Under the pieces are notes generated by a model. It did no database searches. It was not told the origin of the DNA and saw only the letters and a program-made list of their open reading frames with translations. From Streptomyces sp. NBC_00554 (GTDB lineage Bacteria; Actinomycetota; Actinomycetes; Streptomycetales; Streptomycetaceae), in assembly GCF_041431135.1 (NCBI RefSeq), contig NZ_CP107799.1:3906001-3970000 (forward strand): a stretch of DNA of 64,000 nt, in the 5' to 3' direction. This document shows, in pieces, positions 40,887 through 51,280 of the stretch; the stretch's first letter is position 1, and the number at the start of each line of letters is the position of its first letter. Position numbers and translations under genes: made by a program.

Positions 40887-42017
40887 TCAGATGCCGTACG
40901 TCCCGTACTGGGCGTACTCGGCGTTCTGTGCGTAGCCCGGCGTGATCGAGTCGGCCACGTCCTGGACGCCGGTTACGGCGTTGCCCGCGAGGGGGCCGCC
41001 GGTCTCCTGGACGGTTCCGGTCAGGTCCTGCGCGAAGGAGCCGACCTGGCCGACGACACCGCCCGCGAACGGGTCGACCTCACCGACCACACCGTCGGCC
41101 AGCGGCCGCACGTCACCCGTGACGCCGTACGCGAGGACGGTGGCGCTGCCTTCGACGCCGTGCACGGTCTCGACGACCGGCCGCACCGTCTCGACGACCG
41201 TCCGCACGACCGGCCGCACGGCGCCGACGACACCCCCGGCGAAGGGCTGCACATCGTCGGTGACGACGCCCTGCGCGAAGGGTCCGACCTGGCCGACCAC
41301 GCCGTACGCGAGCGGCGGGACCTCGCCCACGACACCGCCCGCGAAGGGCTGGACGTCACCCACGACGCCGTACGCCAGCGCGCCCGCGTCCCCGACTGCC
41401 TGCCCGGCGACCGGGACGACGCCGTGCACGGCGGTCACTGCGACGGGCGGCAGGACGGAGGCGGTGTCGTCGGCGACCTGGCCGACGAGACCTCCGGCGA
41501 GCGGCTGTACGTCGGCGACGGCGCCGTACGTCAGCAGCGTCACGTTCCCCACCACGTGACCCACGACCGGCGTGACGCCCCGGACGGCGGTGGCGGCGAC
41601 CGGCGGGACGACGGCGGTGGTGGTCTCGTCCACGACCGGGTCCGCGAAGGCGGCGAGCGGGCCGAAGAGGTAGTCGATCTCGTCCTGCGGGGCGCTGACG
41701 GCGGTAGCGGTGGTGACGGCTGCGGCGGTCGTGGTGTGCTCCGCGGCGGTGGTGACGACGGAGGCCTTGGCCTGTGCGGCCTTGGTGCCGGTGGCGCCCG
41801 AGGCGGTGGTGCTCTGGACGTCGCCGGTGACATTCCCGGCGACGTCGTCGACGGTGTCGGTGACCGAGCCGACGGTGTCCGTGACGTCGAGGGTCGTGTC
41901 AGGCAGGGAGACGGACGGCGAGGGCAGCTCGTCCGCGCTGGCGACGGCGGAGCCGAGCGCCCACGCGCCGGTGACACCTGCGGCTATGACGATGGAACGG
42001 CGGATGTTCTTGTTCAT
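40887..42017 (-). CDS. Exported protein with 11-residue tandem repeats
   Basis: 376 residues from ATG 42017. The signal peptide is typical (NKNIRRSIVIAAGVTGAWAL, cleaved near AVASADE). The mature protein is Val/Gly-rich. From about residue 140 it is built of roughly eleven 11-residue units of the form QPFAGGVVGEV (variants GALAYGVVGDV, PPLAYGVVGQV, DPFAGGVVGQV). No known domain, sortase motif or LysM was seen. The C-terminus is Tyr-rich (YAQNAEYAQYGTYG). A second exported Val-rich protein lies directly upstream on the same strand, and the two may act together at the cell surface. Function is unknown. Confidence 0.78.
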   Translation of the reverse strand: MNKNIRRSIVIAAGVTGAWALGSAVASADELPSPSVSLPDTTLDVTDTVGSVTDTVDDVAGNVTGDVQSTTASGATGTKAAQAKASVVTTAAEHTTTAAAVTTATAVSAPQDEIDYLFGPLAAFADPVVDETTTAVVPPVAATAVRGVTPVVGHVVGNVTLLTYGAVADVQPLAGGLVGQVADDTASVLPPVAVTAVHGVVPVAGQAVGDAGALAYGVVGDVQPFAGGVVGEVPPLAYGVVGQVGPFAQGVVTDDVQPFAGGVVGAVRPVVRTVVETVRPVVETVHGVEGSATVLAYGVTGDVRPLADGVVGEVDPFAGGVVGQVGSFAQDLTGTVQETGGPLAGNAVTGVQDVADSITPGYAQNAEYAQYGTYGI

Positions 42018-42175
42018 GCGTACGTCAGATCCTTCGGGATTCCGAGACTTCGAAACATTCCTGGGGTTTCCGGGGCTTCCGGTGGCTTCCGGTGGCTTCC
42101 ATCCGGTGATCGGAGGAGGTCCGGACAGCGGACAGACCTGCACCGCTCGCCAAGGCGAGCGCGAGGGAGGGCTGT

Positions 42176-43168
42176 CTAGCCGGGGAAAACGGGAATGTCC
42201 CGGAACCTGTCCCGGGTCTCGGCCGCGGACACAACCGCGGACGCGCCGGGTACGAGCCGAAGCGGCACCCGGTGGTGAGGAGTGACGGCATGCGCATCGC
42301 CGTGCCGCGGCCCGCCGTTGTCGACCGCCGACTGGTTGCCCAGCGCGCCGGTCGGGTTGCCGGGGGGCGCCTGGTGCGCGGGTGCGGGCGCTTGCACGGG
42401 ACGTACGCCTTGGTGGCCCCTGTACGCGTCAGCGCCTTCGGCCTGCGCGGCTGTACGGGCGGGCCCGTAGGCCGACGTGACCCCGAGGACCGTCTGCTGC
42501 CCCGCAACTCCCTCGTCCGCCCCGCCGACGACGCCCCCGGCCGACTGCTGCGGCGCGGAACCGGCGGCGGGCGGAACCTGGCCGCCCACACCCGGAAGCC
42601 CCGGCAGGCCAGGCAGGGAGGGAAGCTCGGGCAGGGCCGGCAATATCTCCGCCGGAGTTCCGGTCAGCCCGCCGGTAACCGTCTCCACCAAGTCACCGAT
42701 CGGCAGTACGACATCGTCGACGACGGGTTGGACGACGAGCTCACCAACCGGCTGCACGACGTGCCGGACGGTGTCCGTGACGGGCGCCAGAACGGGTTCA
42801 GTGACCTGCGTCTGGACGCTGTCGGTGATGTGCGTGACATTCGTGACGGCGCTCGACGGAACAGACCCGACCTCAAGGACCGACCTGCCCGCCGATTTCA
42901 CAACATGTGCCACCGGCCGTTCCAGCGACTGCTCCACCGAACGCGTCACCGCACCGATAACTGGGCGCGTCACCGCACCCGTCACCGACTGCACGGCCGG
43001 CACCGGTGTCGTCGGCGCCAGCCCGTCCGCCGCGTGCGCCTGCTCCCCGAAGAGGAGCCCGAGCGCGAACAACCCGCCTGCCAGCAGCACCACTTGCAGC
43101 GCACGCCGTCCGACCGCCGTGCGCGTCACGCGCAGAGCGGCACCGGGCAGTGCGACTGACAAGGCCAT
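42176..43168 (-). CDS. Exported Val/Pro-rich protein, unknown function
   Basis: 330 residues from ATG 43168. An N-terminal signal sequence or anchor (RALQVVLLAGGLFALGLLFG) is cleaved near EQAHAADG. The mature part has loose repeats built on V-T-x-P-V/V-x-x-P-V (VTGAVTRPVIGAVTRSVE, VTEPVLAPVTDTVRHVVQP) and then a Leu/Pro collagen-like stretch (LPALPELPSLPGLPGLPG). It resembles the downstream exported protein in composition, and they are 158 bp apart on the same strand. No enzyme motif was found. Confidence 0.73.
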   Translation of the reverse strand: MALSVALPGAALRVTRTAVGRRALQVVLLAGGLFALGLLFGEQAHAADGLAPTTPVPAVQSVTGAVTRPVIGAVTRSVEQSLERPVAHVVKSAGRSVLEVGSVPSSAVTNVTHITDSVQTQVTEPVLAPVTDTVRHVVQPVGELVVQPVVDDVVLPIGDLVETVTGGLTGTPAEILPALPELPSLPGLPGLPGVGGQVPPAAGSAPQQSAGGVVGGADEGVAGQQTVLGVTSAYGPARTAAQAEGADAYRGHQGVRPVQAPAPAHQAPPGNPTGALGNQSAVDNGGPRHGDAHAVTPHHRVPLRLVPGASAVVSAAETRDRFRDIPVFPG

Positions 43169-43307
43169 GAGAAGGGGGTGCTTCCCGTGTGAAGGGTGTG
43201 AAGGCGCGTCGATCCTCGCACGCGACTCCCGAGGCCGCACAAGCCCCCTCCAGGCAATGCTCGTTCATGTCCGAATTTCAACTCTCCTCACTCGGTGTCC
43301 GGTCTCC

Positions 43308-44537
43308 TCACTTGGTGTCCGGCACCGGCAACGGCCGCTTCTCGATCGCCGCCGCCATCACCTCGGGAAACAGATCGGGCGTGCACGCGAACGCCGGTGC
43401 GTCCAGCGCCGCGAGAGCCGCCGCGTGCTCACGGTCGTACGCCGGTGCCCCCTCGTCGGACAGCGCGAGCAGTGTCACGAACTGCACCCCCGACGCCTTC
43501 ATCGCCGCGACCCGCTTCAGCATCTCGTTCCGTATCCCCCCTTCGTAGAGGTCGCTGATGAGCACGACGACCGTGTCGGCGGGCCGGGTGATCTGCGACT
43601 GGCAGTACGCGAGCGCCCTGTTGATGTCCGTACCGCCGCCGAGCTGGGTGCCGAAGAGGACGTCGACCGGGTCGTCGAGCTGGTCGGTGAGGTCGACGAC
43701 GGCCGTGTCGAAGACGACGAGCCGGGTGGCGATGGACCGCATGGACGCGAGGACCGCGCCGAACACGGAGGCGTAGACGACGGACGCCGCCATCGATCCC
43801 GACTGGTCGATGCAGAGGATGACCTCCTTCTTCACGGACTGCGACGCCCGCCCGTAGCCGATCAACCGCTCGGGCACGATCGTGCGGTATTCGGGCACGT
43901 AGTGCTTCAGGTTCGCCGCGATGGTGCGGTTCCAGTCGATGTCGTGGTGGCGGGGCCTGCTGATCCGGGCGCTCCGGTCGAGGGCGCCGGTGAGCGTGGC
44001 CCGGGTGCGGGTGGCGAGCCGCTTCTCCAGGTCCTCGACGACCTTGCGTACGACGGCCCGCGCGGTCTCCTTGGTCGTCTCCGGCATGGCCTTGTTGAGG
44101 GAGAGGAGGGTGCCCACCAGATGCACGTCGGCCTCCACCGCCTCCAGCATCTCGGGCTCCAGCAGAAGGGCGGCCAGCCCGAGCCTGTCGATGGCGTCCC
44201 GCTGCATTACCTGGACGACGGACGACGGGAAGTACGTCCGGATGTCCCCGAGCCAGCGCGCGACGGACGGCGCGGACGCCCCGAGCCCGGCTGAACGGTC
44301 CCGCCCTGCCTGCCCCTTGCCTCCCTTCCCGTTCCCGTACAACGCACCGAGCGCACCGTCCATCGCGGCGTCCTGCCCGGAGAGTGCGCACCCGGTGCCG
44401 TCCGCCTCGTCGCCCCCGAGCACGAGCCGCCAGCGCCGCAGCCGCTCGTCCGTAGCGCCGGTCACGCCGGACGCGGCGGTCACACCGGTCGCGCCGGCTT
44501 CGGTGACTACGTCGGTCGCGTCCACCGGTGCGGTCAT
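43308..44537 (-). CDS. VWA-domain protein of the MoxR/DUF5682 operon
   Basis: 409 residues. The C-terminal half is a von Willebrand factor A domain of the CoxE-like type: VILCIDQSGSMAAS carries the MIDAS DxSxS (Asp244, Ser246, Ser248), with a later VVVLISDLYEGG supplying the distal aspartate. The N-terminal half is helical and of unknown type. VWA proteins next to MoxR ATPases usually act as metal-dependent adaptors that bring clients to the ATPase, as in RavA-ViaA. The start overlaps the DUF5682 stop by 4 bp, making it last of three coupled genes. Confidence 0.87.
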   Translation of the reverse strand: MTAPVDATDVVTEAGATGVTAASGVTGATDERLRRWRLVLGGDEADGTGCALSGQDAAMDGALGALYGNGKGGKGQAGRDRSAGLGASAPSVARWLGDIRTYFPSSVVQVMQRDAIDRLGLAALLLEPEMLEAVEADVHLVGTLLSLNKAMPETTKETARAVVRKVVEDLEKRLATRTRATLTGALDRSARISRPRHHDIDWNRTIAANLKHYVPEYRTIVPERLIGYGRASQSVKKEVILCIDQSGSMAASVVYASVFGAVLASMRSIATRLVVFDTAVVDLTDQLDDPVDVLFGTQLGGGTDINRALAYCQSQITRPADTVVVLISDLYEGGIRNEMLKRVAAMKASGVQFVTLLALSDEGAPAYDREHAAALAALDAPAFACTPDLFPEVMAAAIEKRPLPVPDTK

Positions 44538-46972
44538 CGGGCCACCTCCACAAGGTCGTTGTCGTCACTCACCCGGTCGTCGGCTTCGCCATCGCCAGCC
44601 TCGCCATCGCCGCCGTCGGGTTCGTCCAGCCCGAGCAGCAGACGCAGCACCGGCAGTACGGCGTCCGCACGCTCGGCGTCGAGGTCGGGGGCGAACCCGG
44701 GTATCCCGGAGGCCGCTGCCGTGGCACTCCCCCGCGCCCCCGGCCCGCGCCTGATCAACTCGCCGAGCGTCCGGCGCACTCCGGCCTCGTAAGCCGAGAA
44801 CGTCCGTCGCAGCAGCGGCAGTACATCGGTGAACGCCTCCGCCGGAACCCCGGTCAGCCACGCGTCCACCAGCCCGAGCAGCCGCTCGTCGTGCATGAGC
44901 AGCATCCCGCCGCCGGAGCCGCCCCCGACGAACCCCTCGATCCACGCGGCGGCGTCCCCCGGCGCCGTCCCCGGCGACAGCACGAGCCCCATGAGCCGGG
45001 CGGCCTCGTCCTGCGCCAACTCGCCCTCGTCAAGCAGCAGTCGTACGGCCCGTCCGCGGATCACCCCCGGCACGGTGTCGCGCCCGGCCAGCACTCGGAG
45101 CACGGAGTGCCAGCGGCCGCGTATGCCGCCGCCGGACCCGGTGCCGCCCGTCTCCCCCAGCAGGCCCACCGCCCCCTGCACCGCGTCCACATGACGTCGC
45201 ATCTCCTCCGCGGCCTCGGTGTCGAGAGCAGCGCAGGCCGGTGGGAGCCCGACGAAGATCCGCTCGGCGAGGCCCACCGCGACATCGCTGAGGGCGTGTG
45301 TGTCCGTGCCGCGTACGTCGCCGTACCGCAGGGAGCGGACCAGTGCGGGCAGGGCCTGGGCGAGATGGCCGACGTCGGCGTCGAGGGCCGCCCGGTCGGC
45401 GAGGACCCGCATGACCACGGGCAGCGCGTCCGGGAGTTCGGCAAGGAGACAGCGCTCGGCGAGTGCCGTGACATCGGCCAGTGAGCCCGCGCCGATGGCG
45501 TCCGCGTCGGCCTTGGCGGTCGCGGCGGCGAGCACGGTGGTGCCCCACACACCAGCCTCGGCGACCCGCACAGACAGCTCCGGCTCCCAGCGCAGCCGCC
45601 AGGTCTCGCGGAAGGTACCGGTGCTGCCGCGCGACGCGACAGGCTCGCCCCAGCCGATGCCCAGCAGCCGCAGCCGGTGCAGGAGTCTGCTGCGCCCGGC
45701 GTCGGTCTCCTTGCGCAGGTCGAGCTCCAACTCCCGCTCCAGCGCCTCCGGTTTGAGCCGAAGCTGCCGCTGCAGCCGCGCTAGGTCGCGCTGCAGGGGC
45801 ACCGCGGGTGCGGACTCCGGCACCTCCCCCATCACATCTCCGACCACGAGCCGGTCCCGCACGAGCGCGAGCGGCACGTCGGAGCCCTCGCACATCACGG
45901 CTCGTACGGCATCGGTGGTCTCGGTCAGTCCCGGCAGCGGGCGGCCGCGCATCGCGGCGAGTGTGTCGGCGAGCCGCACCGCCTCGATGACGTGCGCGGA
46001 GGAGACCATCCGGTCCTCGTCGCGCAGCAGCCGGGCGACCTTCGTCATCCAGCGCTCGACCGGGCGGTCGGGGGCGCCGAACAGATGCCCGTACCAACCC
46101 GGCGAGTCGATGCCCGCCCCGTACCCGCTGACCCGGGACAGCCGGCGGTGCGTCCACGGCACCCATGTCATGTCGGCCTTGGCCTTGGGCAGCCCCTTGA
46201 GCAGCGCCCGGTCCGCGCCGGCCGTGGTCTTCTGCCGCAGGGCGGGGACGTGCCAGGCCCCGCACACCACCGCCACGTCGTCCCCGAACTCCCGCTGCGC
46301 CGACCGCAACTGGAGCCGCATGTACGCCTCGCGCACGAGATCCCGCTCGTGACCCCCGACCCCGTACGCCTCCCGCAGCGCCCCCATCGCCTCCCCGAGT
46401 ACGGCGAACGGCGCGAACGGATCGCCTCCCGCCGCCCCGCCCCGGTGCTCGACCACGTCCTCCCACCACCGCTCGGGATCGTCGTAACCGGCGGTCTCGG
46501 CCAGCACGGCAAGGGGGTCGATACGAACAGCCTCGTCAGGAGACGAACCCGCCTCGCCCTCCGACTCCTCCGATTCCTCCGAAGGGGATTCGTCCTTCCC
46601 CCAGACCAGCGTGTGGGTCGCCGGAAGGTCGATGAACCGGGCCGGGACTCCGTGGTCCAGGGCCCACCGGATCGCCACCCACTCCGGGGAGAACTCGGCA
46701 AGCGGCCAGAAGGCCGAGCGGCCGGGCTCGTCCACGACGTGGGCGAGGAGGGCGACGGGCGGACGCATGCCCTCTTCGGCGGCGAGCGGGATGAGCGCGT
46801 CCGCCTCCGGGGGCCCCTCGATCAGCACGACCCGGGGAGCGGCCGCCTCCAGCGCGGCCCGCACGGCCCGTGCCGACCCCGGCCCGTGATGCCGCACGCC
46901 GAGCAGCAGCGGCCCGCCCTCCCGTACGCCGGAGACACGCTCCTCCGCCGCCTCCTGCTGGAGTCCGGTCAT
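44534..46972 (-). CDS. DUF5682-family protein
   Basis: 812 residues. The N-terminal ~245 residues begin with LLLGVRHHGPGSARAVRAAL (GVRHHG at 25-30), then VVLIEGPPEADALIPLA, and end with VAVVCGAWHVPAL (His241). Two histidine motifs plus an early Glu are the layout of TraB/TIKI/ChaN/EreA-like hydrolases, so a metal-dependent hydrolase role is possible; this is inference. The remaining ~560 residues are helical and may be repeat-like scaffold. It is coupled by 4-bp overlaps to the MoxR ATPase upstream and the VWA gene downstream. Confidence 0.85.
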   Translation of the reverse strand: MTGLQQEAAEERVSGVREGGPLLLGVRHHGPGSARAVRAALEAAAPRVVLIEGPPEADALIPLAAEEGMRPPVALLAHVVDEPGRSAFWPLAEFSPEWVAIRWALDHGVPARFIDLPATHTLVWGKDESPSEESEESEGEAGSSPDEAVRIDPLAVLAETAGYDDPERWWEDVVEHRGGAAGGDPFAPFAVLGEAMGALREAYGVGGHERDLVREAYMRLQLRSAQREFGDDVAVVCGAWHVPALRQKTTAGADRALLKGLPKAKADMTWVPWTHRRLSRVSGYGAGIDSPGWYGHLFGAPDRPVERWMTKVARLLRDEDRMVSSAHVIEAVRLADTLAAMRGRPLPGLTETTDAVRAVMCEGSDVPLALVRDRLVVGDVMGEVPESAPAVPLQRDLARLQRQLRLKPEALERELELDLRKETDAGRSRLLHRLRLLGIGWGEPVASRGSTGTFRETWRLRWEPELSVRVAEAGVWGTTVLAAATAKADADAIGAGSLADVTALAERCLLAELPDALPVVMRVLADRAALDADVGHLAQALPALVRSLRYGDVRGTDTHALSDVAVGLAERIFVGLPPACAALDTEAAEEMRRHVDAVQGAVGLLGETGGTGSGGGIRGRWHSVLRVLAGRDTVPGVIRGRAVRLLLDEGELAQDEAARLMGLVLSPGTAPGDAAAWIEGFVGGGSGGGMLLMHDERLLGLVDAWLTGVPAEAFTDVLPLLRRTFSAYEAGVRRTLGELIRRGPGARGSATAAASGIPGFAPDLDAERADAVLPVLRLLLGLDEPDGGDGEAGDGEADDRVSDDNDLVEVAR

Positions 46973-48111
46973 ACGCTCACCTCCCGGCAGGCCCGGTAGA
47001 AGTCCTTCCAGCCGTCGCGCTCGCGGACGACCGCCTCCAGGTACTCCTGCCAGATGACGCGGTCGGCGGCCGGGTCGCGGACGACGGCGCCGAGGATGCC
47101 GGCGGCGACGTCACTGGCCCGCAGGACGCCGTCCCCGAAGTGGGCTGCCAGCGCGAGCCCGTTGGTGACGACGGAGATCGCCTCGGCGGTGGACAGCGTG
47201 CCGCTGGGCGACTTCAGCTTCGTACGCCCGTCGGCGGTGACTCCGTCGCGCAGCTCGCGGAAGACGGTGACGACGCGGCGGATCTCGTCGATGCCGTCGG
47301 GCGCGGCGGGCAGGTCGAGGGAGCGGCCGAGCTGGTCGACGCGGCGGGAGACGATGTCGACCTCGGCGTCGGCGCTCTCCGGCAGCGGCAGCACCACCGT
47401 GTTGAAGCGTCGGCGCAGCGCGCTCGACAGTTCGTTGACCCCGCGGTCGCGGTCGTTGGCCGTGGCGATCAGGTTGAAGCCGCGGACGGCCTGCACCTCC
47501 GAGCCCAACTCCGGTATCGGCAGCGTCTTTTCCGACAGGATGGTGATGAGCGTGTCCTGCACGTCGGCGGGGATGCGGGTCAGCTCCTCGACACGTGCTG
47601 TCATCCCTTCCGCCATGGCGCGCATGACGGGGCTCGGTACCAGGGCGTTCCGGCTCGGTCCGTGCGCGAGCAGCTCCGCGTAGTTCCAGCCGTACCGGAT
47701 CGCCTCCTCGGGCGTGCCGGCGGTGCCCTGCACGAGCAGTGTGGAGTCGCCGCTGACCGCCGCCGCCAGATGCTCGGAGACCCAGGTCTTCGCGGTGCCG
47801 GGCACGCCGAGCAGCAGCAGTGCGCGGTCGGTGGCGAGCGTGGTGACGGCGACCTCGACGATGCGGCGCGGTCCCACGTACTTGGGTGTGATCACCGTGC
47901 CGTCCGGCAGCGTGCCGCCCTGCAGATACATCGCCACGGCCCACGGCGACAGCCGCCAGCGGGCCGGGCGGGGCCGGTCGTCCTGCGCGGCCAGCGCGGC
48001 GAGTTCGGCGGCAAAGGCGTCCTCGGCGTGCGGCCGCAACACCTCGCCCGCCCCCTCGCTCACGGACGGATCGACGGACGTGGTCCCAGTCGGCTCAACG
48101 GACACAGACAT
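46969..48111 (-). CDS. MoxR-family AAA+ ATPase
   Basis: 380 residues from ATG 48111, with GGAGGGG about nine bases upstream. Walker A is GVPGTAKT (102-109), the Walker B/sensor region includes VEELTRIPADVQDTLITILS, and IPELGSEVQAVRGFNLIATANDRDRG carries sensor 1; FNTVVLPLPESADAEVDIVS follows. MoxR ATPases are hexameric remodelling enzymes that work with VWA-domain proteins. First gene of a three-gene operon; DUF5682 overlaps its end by 4 bp. It is divergent from the SWIM gene across a 144-bp region with a mirrored 11-bp box. Confidence 0.9.
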   Translation of the reverse strand: MSVSVEPTGTTSVDPSVSEGAGEVLRPHAEDAFAAELAALAAQDDRPRPARWRLSPWAVAMYLQGGTLPDGTVITPKYVGPRRIVEVAVTTLATDRALLLLGVPGTAKTWVSEHLAAAVSGDSTLLVQGTAGTPEEAIRYGWNYAELLAHGPSRNALVPSPVMRAMAEGMTARVEELTRIPADVQDTLITILSEKTLPIPELGSEVQAVRGFNLIATANDRDRGVNELSSALRRRFNTVVLPLPESADAEVDIVSRRVDQLGRSLDLPAAPDGIDEIRRVVTVFRELRDGVTADGRTKLKSPSGTLSTAEAISVVTNGLALAAHFGDGVLRASDVAAGILGAVVRDPAADRVIWQEYLEAVVRERDGWKDFYRACREVSV

Positions 48112-48178
48112 GGCTAGGTCCCCCTCCAGCTCGGCCGGTTCGATCGGCCGGTTCGGACTGGTTCCACCGTGCACCATG

Positions 48179-48235
48179 CCACTGACAATGCGACCTGACC
48201 TGCACAAACGCGCTCGCGAGGCCGATTGTCAGTGG
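48179..48235. promoter_or_regulatory. Mirrored 11-bp boxes in the divergent MoxR/SWIM promoter region
   Basis: ATTGTCAGTGG lies on the plus strand at 48225-48235 and, as its exact complement, on the minus strand at 48179-48189. Each copy therefore faces its own gene and each contains TTGTCA, a good -35 element; -10 elements are weak. The symmetry suggests that both operons share a sigma factor or regulator. Confidence 0.65.
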
Positions 48236-48255
48236 TGGGATCTACCTTCGATGAC

Positions 48256-49632
48256 ATGACTCAGCAGGGGGTGCGCTGGACTGCGGATCAGGTGCTGGCA
48301 CTGGCGCCTGACGCAGCGTCACGCAAAGCGGGAAGCAAGCTCGGCGCCGCCGGGCCGTGGTCGGAGGCAGGCAGTTCTGACGAGGGGACGGTATGGGGAC
48401 TGTGCGCGGGAAGTGGCAGCAAGCCGTATCAGACGGTCATCGACGTCGCGGACTCCACCGGGCCCGCGTACAAGTGCAGTTGCCCCAGCCGCAAGTTCCC
48501 GTGCAAGCACGCGCTGGGGCTGCTGCTGCTCTGGGCGGGCGAGGAGGGCACTGTGCCGCGGGGGCAGGCGCCGGACTGGGCGGAGCAGTGGACAGAGGGG
48601 AGGCGACAGCGCGCGGAGGAGAAGGCGACGACGACGGGCGGGGCATCTGGGACGGCCTCGCCGGGTGATCCGGAGGCGGCCCGGCGCAGGGCGGAGCGGC
48701 GGGCCGAGCGGATCACCGCGGGTGCGACGGAGCTGGAGCAGCGGTTGGCGGATCTGCTGCGGGGCGGCCTGGCCGGGGCCGAGCAGGCCGGGTACGGCAC
48801 GTGGGAGGAGACGGCGGCCCGGATGGTCGACGCGCAGGCACCTGGACTGGCGGCGCGGGTAAGGGAGTTGGGAGCGATCCCGTCATCGGGCCCCGGCTGG
48901 CCGGTGCGACTCCTGGAGGAGTGCGCGCTGCTCCATCTCCTCGACCAGGGCTGGCTGCGCCGCGAGCGACTGCCGGACGACCTTGCCACGACGGTACGTT
49001 CACGGATCGGCCTGCACGGATCGGCGGACGGCCCACAGATCCACGACCGCTGGCTGGTCCTCGCCCAGTACGACACATCGGACAGCCGTCTCACCACGCG
49101 CAGGATCTGGCTGCACGGATCGGAGTCCGGCCGCACGGCTCTGCTCCTCTCCTACGGAGCCGCCGGCCGCGCACCGGATCTGACGCTGCCCGTCGGGCTG
49201 TCCTTCGAGGCGGAACTCTCCGCACACTCGGGCGGCGGACTACGAGCGGCACTGGGCGAACGGTTCACACCACCGACCCCCACGGCAACACGACCACCGG
49301 GAGTCACGACGCCCCAGGCGGCGGCCCACTACGGCAAGGCACTACGCGCCGACCCCTGGCTCGACTCCTACCCCGTCATCCTCGACCGGGTCATACCGAC
49401 CCCCGACGGCGAAGCAACCACGACACCACAACGCTGGCAACTGGCAGATGCCGACGGCGACTTGGCCCTCCCCATCGCCCTCGCTCCGCACTCCCTCCCC
49501 GGCCTGTGGCGCCTCGCCGCCCTCTCTGGCGGCGCCCCCGTAACCGTCTTCGGCGAGTGCGGCCACCACGGCTTCACTCCGCTGACGGCCTGGCCGGAGG
49601 GCCCAGGAGAAGCGGTGTCGCTGTGCTCCTGA
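48256..49632 (+). CDS. SWIM zinc-finger protein
   Basis: 458 residues from ATG 48256. The SWIM motif CxCx(6)CxH is intact: Cys74, Cys76, Cys83 and His85 within KCSCPSRKFPCKHALGLLLL. SWIM domains bind DNA or protein. The rest is a mixed domain without recognised catalytic residues. It is followed 31 bp later by the DUF5691 gene, and the pair is divergent from the MoxR/DUF5682/VWA operon. From memory these five families co-occur in many bacteria, which argues for one system. Confidence 0.88.
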   Translation: MTQQGVRWTADQVLALAPDAASRKAGSKLGAAGPWSEAGSSDEGTVWGLCAGSGSKPYQTVIDVADSTGPAYKCSCPSRKFPCKHALGLLLLWAGEEGTVPRGQAPDWAEQWTEGRRQRAEEKATTTGGASGTASPGDPEAARRRAERRAERITAGATELEQRLADLLRGGLAGAEQAGYGTWEETAARMVDAQAPGLAARVRELGAIPSSGPGWPVRLLEECALLHLLDQGWLRRERLPDDLATTVRSRIGLHGSADGPQIHDRWLVLAQYDTSDSRLTTRRIWLHGSESGRTALLLSYGAAGRAPDLTLPVGLSFEAELSAHSGGGLRAALGERFTPPTPTATRPPGVTTPQAAAHYGKALRADPWLDSYPVILDRVIPTPDGEATTTPQRWQLADADGDLALPIALAPHSLPGLWRLAALSGGAPVTVFGECGHHGFTPLTAWPEGPGEAVSLCS

Positions 49633-49663
49633 CCACCTCCGTACAGAAAGGACGCCAACGCTC

Positions 49664-51280
49664 ATGAACACGACCTCTGCTCCTGAAGGCTCCTGGGAGG
49701 AGCTCGTCACCGTGGCACTGCTCGGGACGGATCGGCGTACACCTCCGGGGTGCGGCCCGGGACAGGAAGCACCCATGGCATTGCTGGACGCCGCCGCGGT
49801 GGAAACACTGCGGCGGCGGGCCGGGATGCGCCCGGCTCCAGCGGCGGCCCGCCCCGAGCCGTCGGCCCCGGATCCGCGCCCGGCCCTGCCGCCCGCCGCG
49901 GCCCAAAGACTCACACAGCTGCTGACGGACCGCCCCGGCACCGGTGGCGGCGGCCGCAGAGGAACGGCGCCCGACCTCATGGAACTGCTGCCGCAGTGGC
50001 TCACCCTGGCCAACGCGCACGGTTTCGCGCCACCCCCGCAAGCACTCCCAGCGCTCCTCGACGCGGCCCGGGGCCGCACCGATCTCCGACCCGCCGCACT
50101 GACCTTCGCGGGGCCGCGCGCCCTGTGGCTTGCACGGCTGAACCCGGACTGGCGCTTCGCACTGCGCTCCACTCCAGGAGGCGGTACGGCGCTCCCGGAC
50201 CCCGCAGAGCCGGAGCGCGTACAACAGCTCTGGCAGGAAGGCCTGTTCGCCGAACGGGTAGCACTGCTCACCGCAATACGGACCCGCCAACCCGCAGCCG
50301 CCCGCGAGCTGCTCGCCACCACATGGACCACCGAACGGGCCGAGGACCGGCTGATGTTCCTCGACTCGCTGCGGTCGGGGCTGTGCGCGGCGGACGAACC
50401 GTTCCTGGAGCGGGCGCTCGCCGACCGGAGCCGCAACGTACGGGCGACGGCGGCGGAGTTGCTGTCCGCGCTGCCGGAGTCGGCGCTCGCCGGGCGGATG
50501 GCGGCCAGGGCGGGTTCCTGCGTGGCCGTCGACCGTACGCGGGGCACGCCCACGATCGTGGTCGAGGCGCCGCACGAGTGCGACGCGGGCATGGAGCGGG
50601 ACGGCGTGGTGCCGAAGCCTCCCGCCGGGCGCGGCGAACGGTCGTGGTGGCTGGGCCAGTTGGTCGACGCGACACCGCTCGCGACCTGGCCGCGACGGCT
50701 CGGCGGACGTACGCCGGAGGACATCGTCGCCCTGCCCGTGGCGGACGACTGGCAGAGCGAGCTGCATGCCGCGTGGTGCCGGGCCGCGGTACGGCAGCGG
50801 GATCCGGGCTGGTCCAGGGCGCTCCTCGGGGCGCCCTCCGCCCCGGAGGCCGGGGGACCGGGGGCGGTGTCCCTGTCGGAGCGGTCGAAACTGCTCGCCA
50901 CGCTGGGTTCGGCCGAGCGGGCCGAGTGGGTGGCGGGGTTCATCGGCACGCACGGGTTGTCCGAGGCGTTTCAGTTGCTCGGGGTGTGTGCGGTGCCCTG
51001 GGCGGGGCCGTTGGGGCGGGCGGTGGTCGACGCGCTCAATATCGCGCGGGACGCGGGGAGTTACCCGTGGAGCTTCAGCGGGGTCATGGGGCTGGCCGAG
51101 CGCTGCCTCGACCCCGCGGAGGCGGTCCGACTCGAAGGGCTCACGGGCATTCCCGAAGAGCCGGAGAACGCCGCGCCAGGCGCCGGCAGCTACTGGGCCG
51201 AAGCGTTCCAGCGCCTGGTCACGACCCTGCGCCTACGCGCAACCATGACCAAAGAACTCACGCCTCCCCAACCAACGTAA
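49664..51280 (+). CDS. DUF5691-family protein
   Basis: 538 residues from ATG 49664 (AAGGA upstream). It opens with WEELVTVALLGTDRRTPPG, typical of the DUF5691 family. The centre has helical-repeat character (AVALLTAIRTRQPAAARELL, then TTERAEDRLMFLDSLRSGLC and ERALADRSRNVRATAAELLS), reminiscent of HEAT repeats. No catalytic residues are recognised. It is paired with the SWIM protein in one operon and with the divergent MoxR/DUF5682/VWA genes. Confidence 0.82.
   Translation: MNTTSAPEGSWEELVTVALLGTDRRTPPGCGPGQEAPMALLDAAAVETLRRRAGMRPAPAAARPEPSAPDPRPALPPAAAQRLTQLLTDRPGTGGGGRRGTAPDLMELLPQWLTLANAHGFAPPPQALPALLDAARGRTDLRPAALTFAGPRALWLARLNPDWRFALRSTPGGGTALPDPAEPERVQQLWQEGLFAERVALLTAIRTRQPAAARELLATTWTTERAEDRLMFLDSLRSGLCAADEPFLERALADRSRNVRATAAELLSALPESALAGRMAARAGSCVAVDRTRGTPTIVVEAPHECDAGMERDGVVPKPPAGRGERSWWLGQLVDATPLATWPRRLGGRTPEDIVALPVADDWQSELHAAWCRAAVRQRDPGWSRALLGAPSAPEAGGPGAVSLSERSKLLATLGSAERAEWVAGFIGTHGLSEAFQLLGVCAVPWAGPLGRAVVDALNIARDAGSYPWSFSGVMGLAERCLDPAEAVRLEGLTGIPEEPENAAPGAGSYWAEAFQRLVTTLRLRATMTKELTPPQPT

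Follow-up and report, generated by a model that had tools for sequence, protein, structure and literature searches.

A conserved five-gene MoxR-DUF5682-VWA and SWIM-DUF5691 module of Streptomyces with a candidate DNA-damage-type promoter and a sister branch in Escherichia coli

We analyzed a 64,000-nucleotide stretch of the 10.08-Mb genome of Streptomyces sp. NBC_00554 (NZ_CP107799.1, positions 3,906,001 to 3,970,000; hereafter the window) and describe in it a five-gene locus at positions 43308-51280, in which the minus-strand genes for a VWA protein, a DUF5682 protein and a MoxR AAA+ ATPase are divergent from the plus-strand genes for a SWIM zinc-finger protein and a DUF5691 protein. The two operons are separated by boxes of the RecA-NDp/PafBC type. 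The motif evidence, which comes from sequence comparison, is strong, and the motif probably controls the module. A role of the module in DNA-damage survival appears reasonably probable, and the chances are evenly balanced that its products form an AAA+ remodelling complex induced by DNA damage and tethered to DNA, as sequences and structure models together suggest. The sequence part of this argument comprises the set of genes, the intact motifs in MoxR and VWA, the conservation of the boxes, and the presence of the motif before repair genes and at all 17 Streptomyces DUF5682 places examined. An earlier interpretation made from the sequence alone (the sequence-only reading) had considered a stress role, which now gains specific support from the DNA-damage-type promoter; the control region and the kinship with the E. 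coli genes yehL, yehM, yehP and yehQ are new relative to it.

The gap between the MoxR and SWIM genes holds CCACTGACAAT and ATTGTCAGTGG as an inverted pair. On the plus strand, TTGTCAGTG-N8-TACCTT (48226-48248) is a candidate RecA-NDp/PafBC-type promoter facing SWIM, and on the minus strand TTGTCAGTG-N8-CACGGT (48166-48188) is a candidate box of the same type facing MoxR. The full motif TTGTCRGTG-N8-TAnnnT is what we take to be the RecA-NDp consensus; by this measure the SWIM-DUF5691 operon is preceded by the full motif and the MoxR operon by the 9-mer only. Counts were made in the 78 of 80 Streptomyces loci that hold both genes (a stricter filter gave 77 loci). The 9-mer facing MoxR is found in 77/78 loci, that facing SWIM in 72/78, and the full motif facing SWIM in 48/78, against a background of 14 further 9-mers in 1.58 Mb of the same 78 loci, or 0.0018 per 200 bp. 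Per-column conservation was calculated for 57 loci picked for having both boxes, so that the box columns are conserved by construction; the 72/78 and 77/78 counts are free of this choice. RecA-NDp, a RecA-independent DNA-damage promoter, is described as the PafBC site and as extending to other Actinobacteria (PMC8223512; papers are cited by PubMed Central (PMC) accession). The longest open reading frames (ORFs) of the SWIM and MoxR genes begin with TTG at 48226 and 48207, respectively, and because these TTGs lie at or inside the promoter region, the actual starts are probably downstream, at ATG 48256 for SWIM and at ATG 48111 (or 48177) for MoxR. The SWIM ATG begins 8 bp beyond the -10 element, a spacing that would suit a leaderless transcript.

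The full motif occurs 31 times in the window genome, and its reversed control does not occur at all. It is present in 41 of 41 Streptomyces genomes, with 11-44 sites in each and at most one for the control. Two of the 31 sites had no gene called and one is the window locus itself; the first downstream genes of the other 28, three of which start 395 to 966 bp from the motif, were scanned with Pfam. Eleven of them encode RecA, UvrA, UvrB, RuvC, uracil-DNA glycosylase, O6-methylguanine methyltransferase, DnaX, a RecD2-type helicase, two DEAD-box helicases and ThyX. Two adjacent WYL-domain genes lie 8 kb from pup, where we would presume pafB and pafC to be located, and are likely pafBC. The set resembles the mycobacterial RecA-NDp/PafBC regulon in that TTGTCRGTG-N8-TAnnnT precedes recA, uvr and ruv genes here too, and differs from it in that such a response is not established in Streptomyces according to a 2022 paper (PMC9380542). 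The motif counts bear on the question raised there, whether Streptomyces has a RecA/LexA-independent, PafBC-type response or not. An M. smegmatis strain mutated in pafBC is reported to have 1.6-1.7-fold less of MoxR1, MoxR2 and one von Willebrand protein (PMC5656591).

The association of the motif with DUF5682 extends beyond the five-gene locus. Eight Streptomyces genomes hold 17 DUF5682 places, namely eight five-gene loci and nine paralogues (loci of a WGR-DUF4132 type, loci with DUF5682 fused to VWA, and short loci whose first gene is unnamed), and seven of the eight genomes have two or three such places. A full motif lies within 8 kb of all 17 (16 exact, one with one mismatch), the chance expectation being about 0.012 full motifs per strand and locus; since places of one type share descent, the 17 are not independent events. 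The exact motif faces SWIM in the eight five-gene loci, and in the nine paralogues the motif lies upstream on the DUF5682 strand. According to a simple gene caller, the next gene starts 61 to 116 bp after the motif start in loci L184, L185, L186 and L188, and about 65 bp after the one-mismatch copy in L183. A DNA-damage-type promoter at 17/17 Streptomyces DUF5682 places examined offers a concrete and cheap hypothesis for the YehL-type MoxR. L186 (5008-12379; C1:2157007-2164378) is the second DUF5682 locus of the window genome, has its own exact motif, and encodes, in this order, an unnamed protein with a Cys/His cluster noted by eye, a VWA protein, a MoxR protein and a 930-aa DUF5682-like protein.

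The five genes, their divergent layout and their coordinates as given by the sequence-only reading agree with the ORFs and Pfam matches. The VWA gene (43308-44537, minus strand) encodes a CoxE-type YehP homologue, identified by Pfam (VWA_CoxE, E 2.9e-61) and blastp, in which the residues of the metal-ion-dependent adhesion site (MIDAS) claimed earlier are indeed intact (DQSGS at 244, GGGTD at 300, SDLYEGG at 328). The DUF5682 gene (44534-46972, minus) encodes a YehM homologue (DUF5682, E 6.6e-304), further studied through blastp, an 18-member alignment and a structure model. The MoxR gene (46969-48111 with the inferred start, minus) encodes a YehL-like ATPase by Pfam (AAA_5, E 4.1e-37) and blastp, with an intact Walker A motif (GVPGTAKT) and VEELTR as its presumed Walker B region. 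Both junctions in this operon, VWA/DUF5682 and DUF5682/MoxR, are 4-bp ATGA overlaps, as had been noticed. On the plus strand, the SWIM gene (48256-49632; SWIM, E 1.3e-5) encodes a zinc-finger protein with predicted C-terminal tandem OB folds, seen in the model and in fold searches, and is followed after 31 bp by the DUF5691 gene (49664-51280; Pfam DUF5691, E 1.7e-177). All five Pfam matches exceed the curated cut-offs. The description of DUF5691 as a helical-repeat protein finds little backing in a single weak HEAT match under the cut-off (E 0.032).

By gene order and co-occurrence in sequenced genomes, the five genes are one conserved module. Among 198 genomes drawn from Actinomycetota, DUF5691 exceeded its cut-off in 16 (a match at E ≤0.001 was found in 19, three of these under the cut-off) and DUF5682 in 17. 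All 16 DUF5691 genomes also have DUF5682, with the genes at most 3.4 kb apart, and a single genome, G124, has DUF5682 without DUF5691. Chance is not the explanation of this association (Fisher p 1e-22 for the 198 genomes and 2e-12 by genus, both uncorrected for kinship). The sequence-only reading was to be abandoned if the five families occurred mostly apart; in Actinomycetota they occur together, in its favor. A single run SWIM-DUF5691-MoxR-DUF5682-VWA is found in eight non-Streptomyces actinobacterial genomes (L173-L180), and in Streptomyces the same run is broken into two divergent halves.

Because the best 80 DUF5682 relatives in a scan of genome contigs were all from Streptomycetaceae, wider occurrence was followed in 15 regions hand-picked from 61 DUF5682 match rows. 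The choice was one of convenience: every region contains DUF5682 by design, one record contributed two regions, and seven regions lack annotation. MoxR and VWA flank DUF5682 in 15/15 of these regions, and DUF5691 is present in 7/15. The five-gene run occurs in Rhizobium, Methylobacterium, Nonomuraea and Nocardia; the run of Deinococcus has one small extra ORF, that of Hymenobacter has SWIM and DUF5691 joined as one protein, and that of Methylosinus has VWA broken over frames. The module recurs in Deinococcota, Bacteroidota and Alphaproteobacteria. Two of the 15 regions have a DUF4132 gene before VWA, one has a DUF5682-VWA fusion and one the frame-split VWA gene. DUF5682 and VWA form one protein in a Streptomyces plasmid copy and in Streptomyces paralogues, and some DUF5682 copies are plasmid-borne. 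These single-protein fusions count in favour of the complex proposed below. The pattern scan of IMG/VR confirmed no relative. The one match labelled bacteriophage, MT835988.1 (L141), carries MoxR-DUF5682-VWA; it is an unverified scaffold from faeces and could well derive from a bacterium. Several details of these regions deserve mention: the VWA gene of the Methylosinus plasmid copy (L130:9154-10379) extends over three frames and is unannotated; in Nocardia (L137:2-5878) the SWIM and DUF5691 matches fall in one open frame, about 25 codons apart, as a possible second SWIM-DUF5691 fusion; and small ORFs with no Pfam match at E 0.01 lie between MoxR and DUF5682 in Deinococcus (L128:6756-6992) and Hymenobacter (L129:6362-6973). 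In the open-licence PMC literature we found no published role for the module and no mention of DUF5682 or DUF5691, and the earlier label of an uncharacterised system still applies.

The E. coli K-12 genes yehL, yehM, yehP and yehQ encode MoxR, DUF5682, VWA and SWIM proteins, respectively, and are a sister branch of the window module as judged by sequence. The window proteins match YehL (38.9% identity, E 1e-73), YehM (27%, E 6e-41) and YehP (36.7%, E 2e-72) in blastp, and the YehL-like MoxR, DUF5682 and VWA_CoxE genes are adjacent in the same order. The two branches differ in that E. coli has DUF4132 (yehI) and WGR (yehF) where the window has DUF5691, and in that YehQ and the window SWIM protein are not detectably similar outside the finger. 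Genes yehF, yehH and yehI lie upstream of yehL-yehM-yehP-yehQ, and DUF4132 takes the same place in Iodobacter, Sinorhizobium and Allorhizobium. WGR is a DNA-binding domain. Treating DUF5691 and DUF4132 as one family found no support, as their profiles do not match (hhalign E 0.45), and between the window SWIM protein and the YehQ group the finger alone aligns (E 0.13). Of 5426 complete E. coli genomes, 5286 contain a match to the stretch that runs from yehL to within yehP (at least 80% of it in 5165), and 5293 of 5295 places matching yehL-yehM-yehP are chromosomal. Presumably molR is also a gene of the E. coli yeh branch. A lepA mutation combined with molR1 is reported to cause a growth defect (PMC4245954). 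YehL is a named MoxR subfamily (PMC3893208), for which we found no function in print in the open-licence PMC literature.

Structure models offer hints to the roles of two proteins. The SWIM protein model has a mean predicted local distance difference test (pLDDT) score of 87.7. Residues 256-451 matched tandem OB folds in Foldseek (HIN, E 8e-3; LEF-3, 0.026; POT1, 0.030), and the OB part aligned with RPA70 (1jmc; Z 6.5, 169 aligned, root-mean-square deviation (rmsd) 4.7) and human SSB (5d8f; Z 7.4, 82 aligned, rmsd 3.5), so that the C-terminus is predicted, with modest scores, to form RPA-like tandem OB folds; the N-terminus matches ZSWIM8 (Z 8.7). The DUF5682 model (pLDDT 72.9) consists of a fairly confident N-terminal alpha/beta domain followed by a HEAT-like helical solenoid. 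Residues R27, H28, P31, E52, D115, R214, E215 and H241 are invariant across 18 diverse members, in an arrangement that recalls Tiki/TraB/ChaN hydrolases. Pfam matches of the N-terminus to ChaN (E 0.0072) and TraB (E 0.0095) were obtained for two of the 18 members each, and an unrelated CBM46 match (0.0046) for one; hhalign against E. coli YbaP aligned the motif, but with a probability of 1.6% and E 0.033. PF01963 (TraB) matched none of 31 DUF5682 relatives, searches of PDB sequences with DUF5682 profiles gave nothing at E <0.1, and Foldseek with the whole model gave no match at E ≤0.001, the 50 rows listed being mostly solenoids and designed repeats. The resemblance of the DUF5682 N-terminus to Tiki/TraB/ChaN is therefore weak, a lead and not a proof, and the OB folds and the Tiki-like domain are both predicted only.

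The comparison with known MoxR-VWA systems does not support two earlier assignments. RavA-ViaA shares with the window a MoxR AAA+ ATPase and a MIDAS VWA partner, and the sequence-only reading had placed the pair in this type; however, the window MoxR belongs to another subfamily (RavA E 0.021 in blastp, against 1e-73 for YehL), the VWA protein matches ViaA at E 4e-5 compared with 2e-72 for YehP and scores 21.6 bits with the NCBIfam ViaA model (cut-off 500), and no DUF5682, SWIM or DUF5691 gene is annotated around ravA-viaA. The MoxR-VWA ternary conflict systems (PMC7159879), which had also been invoked, similarly combine MoxR and VWA with a third component. In the window this component is DUF5682, no effector module exceeded its cut-off, bpMoxR scored 22.4 bits (cut-off 27) and no specific marker was found, nor does the main text of Kaur et al. 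2020 mention YehL, YehM, SWIM, DUF5682 or DUF5691. In NorQ-NorD and CoxD-CoxE, a MoxR hexamer works with a VWA protein able to hold the target by its MIDAS (PMC9976466), and the window VWA protein has the VWA_CoxE domain; the module differs in its extra partners DUF5682, SWIM and DUF5691 and in having no client metalloenzyme beside its annotated loci.

In the scheme that we propose, DNA damage would cause the WYL-domain activator PafBC to switch on both divergent operons via the RecA-NDp-type boxes. The SWIM protein, with its predicted RPA-like tandem OB folds, and DUF5691 would recognise single-stranded or damaged DNA, the VWA protein would bridge target proteins to the MoxR hexamer by its MIDAS, DUF5682 would contribute a putative Tiki/TraB/ChaN-like hydrolase domain and a partner-docking solenoid, and ATP-driven remodelling, possibly with cleavage, would clear or reset proteins on damaged DNA. 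PafBC as the binder, induction, complex formation, the target and the chemistry are what we infer here. We offer the detailed mechanism, that of a machine tethered to DNA which remodels or cleaves, as a proposal and hold it to be doubtful. Its most explicit form is speculative and improbable: SWIM/tandem-OB and DUF5691 (or WGR-DUF4132) would hold damaged DNA, and VWA would seize a protein that is stuck or crosslinked, for MoxR to pull on and the Tiki-like DUF5682 to cut. If true, this form would be a bacterial functional counterpart of SPRTN/Wss1 with p97 that is assembled from unrelated components and whose core spans phyla from Actinomycetota to Fusobacteriota, and the yehL-yehM-yehP genes of most E. 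coli would gain a function.

A number of observations weigh against this scheme. PafBC binding to the boxes is deduced from a presumed consensus; the full motif faces MoxR in 0/78 loci, and the MoxR-side -10 element in the window, CACGGT, departs from TAnnnT. For S. venezuelae, a first search is reported to have pointed to a lack of conservation of the M. smegmatis PafBC motif, with the question left open (PMC9380542); for the genus Streptomyces our motif counts, which are evidence from sequence, point the opposite way. Fold support is weak, with a best Foldseek E of 8e-3 for SWIM and Z values of 6-7 for the OB part, and OB folds of non-DNA-binding proteins, tRNA synthetases and NlpE appear among the matches as well. 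The best match of DUF5682 residues 15-252 is 7w5z chain E (Z 9.6, rmsd 5.2, 187 aligned), a chain that we can only suspect of being TraB-like, no such term occurring in the paper examined. Strict LexA, radiation/desiccation response motif (RDRM) and NDp boxes were found in 0/22 other loci within 400 bp upstream of the operon. The LexA-like box of E. coli, AACTGGATAAAATTACAGGG, which starts 27 bp ahead of yehF, the WGR gene at the head of the run, speaks for the scheme by its place, but has 13/20 consensus letters and is not the best match in its 28 kb.

In E. coli, no CTGTN8ACAG was found before yehH, yehI or yehL. The exact full motif is absent genome-wide from eight of nine non-Streptomyces DUF5682 genomes, and its absence at their loci therefore says little; the ninth genome, G050, has five exact full motifs, none at the locus. 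A motif weight matrix gave an empirical p <0.05 upstream of 5/12 non-Streptomyces actinobacterial loci and 0/4 outgroup loci, with approximate starts, a null that includes coding DNA and no multiple-test correction, and the degenerate copies in the five loci are suggestive only. In favour of the scheme, MolR has been described as a LexA regulon member, and a D. radiodurans DUF4132 gene rises on DdrO depletion, though not in irradiated irrE cells (PMC8533742). Three different damage regulators, of the PafBC type, LexA and DdrO, may touch the DUF5682-module family, the last two resting mainly on the statements of others. By eye, several loci of one actinobacterial family (L176-L180) share a TACGGT-like element about 20 bp before the SWIM start.

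Three other explanations have to be weighed. The module could serve protein quality in general, as a chaperone that does no more than share its regulation with DNA repair and whose OB folds bind protein or RNA. Such a chaperone would suit the 17 of 28 scanned genes behind the motif that are not obvious repair genes, another point against the DNA-damage scheme: five of them have no Pfam match, others encode ABC and MFS transporters, a sigma factor, ribosomal protein S6, PhoH and a SUKH protein, and one is the first gene of the genome's other DUF5682 locus. RNA and protein are also among the ligands of OB and SWIM folds, and ZSWIM8, the best match of the SWIM part, sits in a complex with AGO2 and RNA. 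We nevertheless consider this explanation rather unlikely, given that the motif is found at all 17 DUF5682 places of the eight Streptomyces genomes, and not at one, and that a DNA-binding domain, WGR, is present in the other branch.

A chaperone for metallo-cofactor or enzyme maturation of the CoxDE/NorQD kind, in which MoxR and VWA insert metal into one client and DUF5682 and SWIM act as adaptors, is suggested by the CoxE family of the VWA protein, by the E. coli branch, which presumably includes molR, named for molybdate use, and by the studied MoxR-VWA pairs, which mature metalloenzymes (PMC9976466, PMC3893208). It is a quite improbable reading, since the module has no recurrent metalloenzyme gene as a neighbour in the eight of 15 fetched regions that have annotation, the promoter motif is shared with DNA-repair genes, and moeA and moeB were unchanged while DUF4132 and WGR genes rose (PMC8533742). 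The sequence-only reading had also considered a defence-like complex, and damage control would suit the trigger of a defence or cell-suicide system that reads DNA damage as a sign of infection. Such a cousin of the conflict systems would agree with the occurrence of MoxR-VWA ternary systems in multicellular bacteria (PMC7159879; Pfam bpMoxR description), with the two or three DUF5682 places in seven of eight Streptomyces genomes and with the plasmid copies. Defence is an equally slim prospect, as the five proteins contain no effector domain over cut-off, PADLOC gave no more than two matches, both to IetA, both weak (E 0.015 and 0.034) and both on the ATP-binding motif, no relative was confirmed in IMG/VR, and the near-universal, chromosomal yehL-yehM-yehP of E. 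coli is unlike a defence island.

By eye, two neighbouring minus-strand ORFs downstream of the VWA gene (40887-42143 and 42176-43240 of the window) look secreted and repeat-rich.

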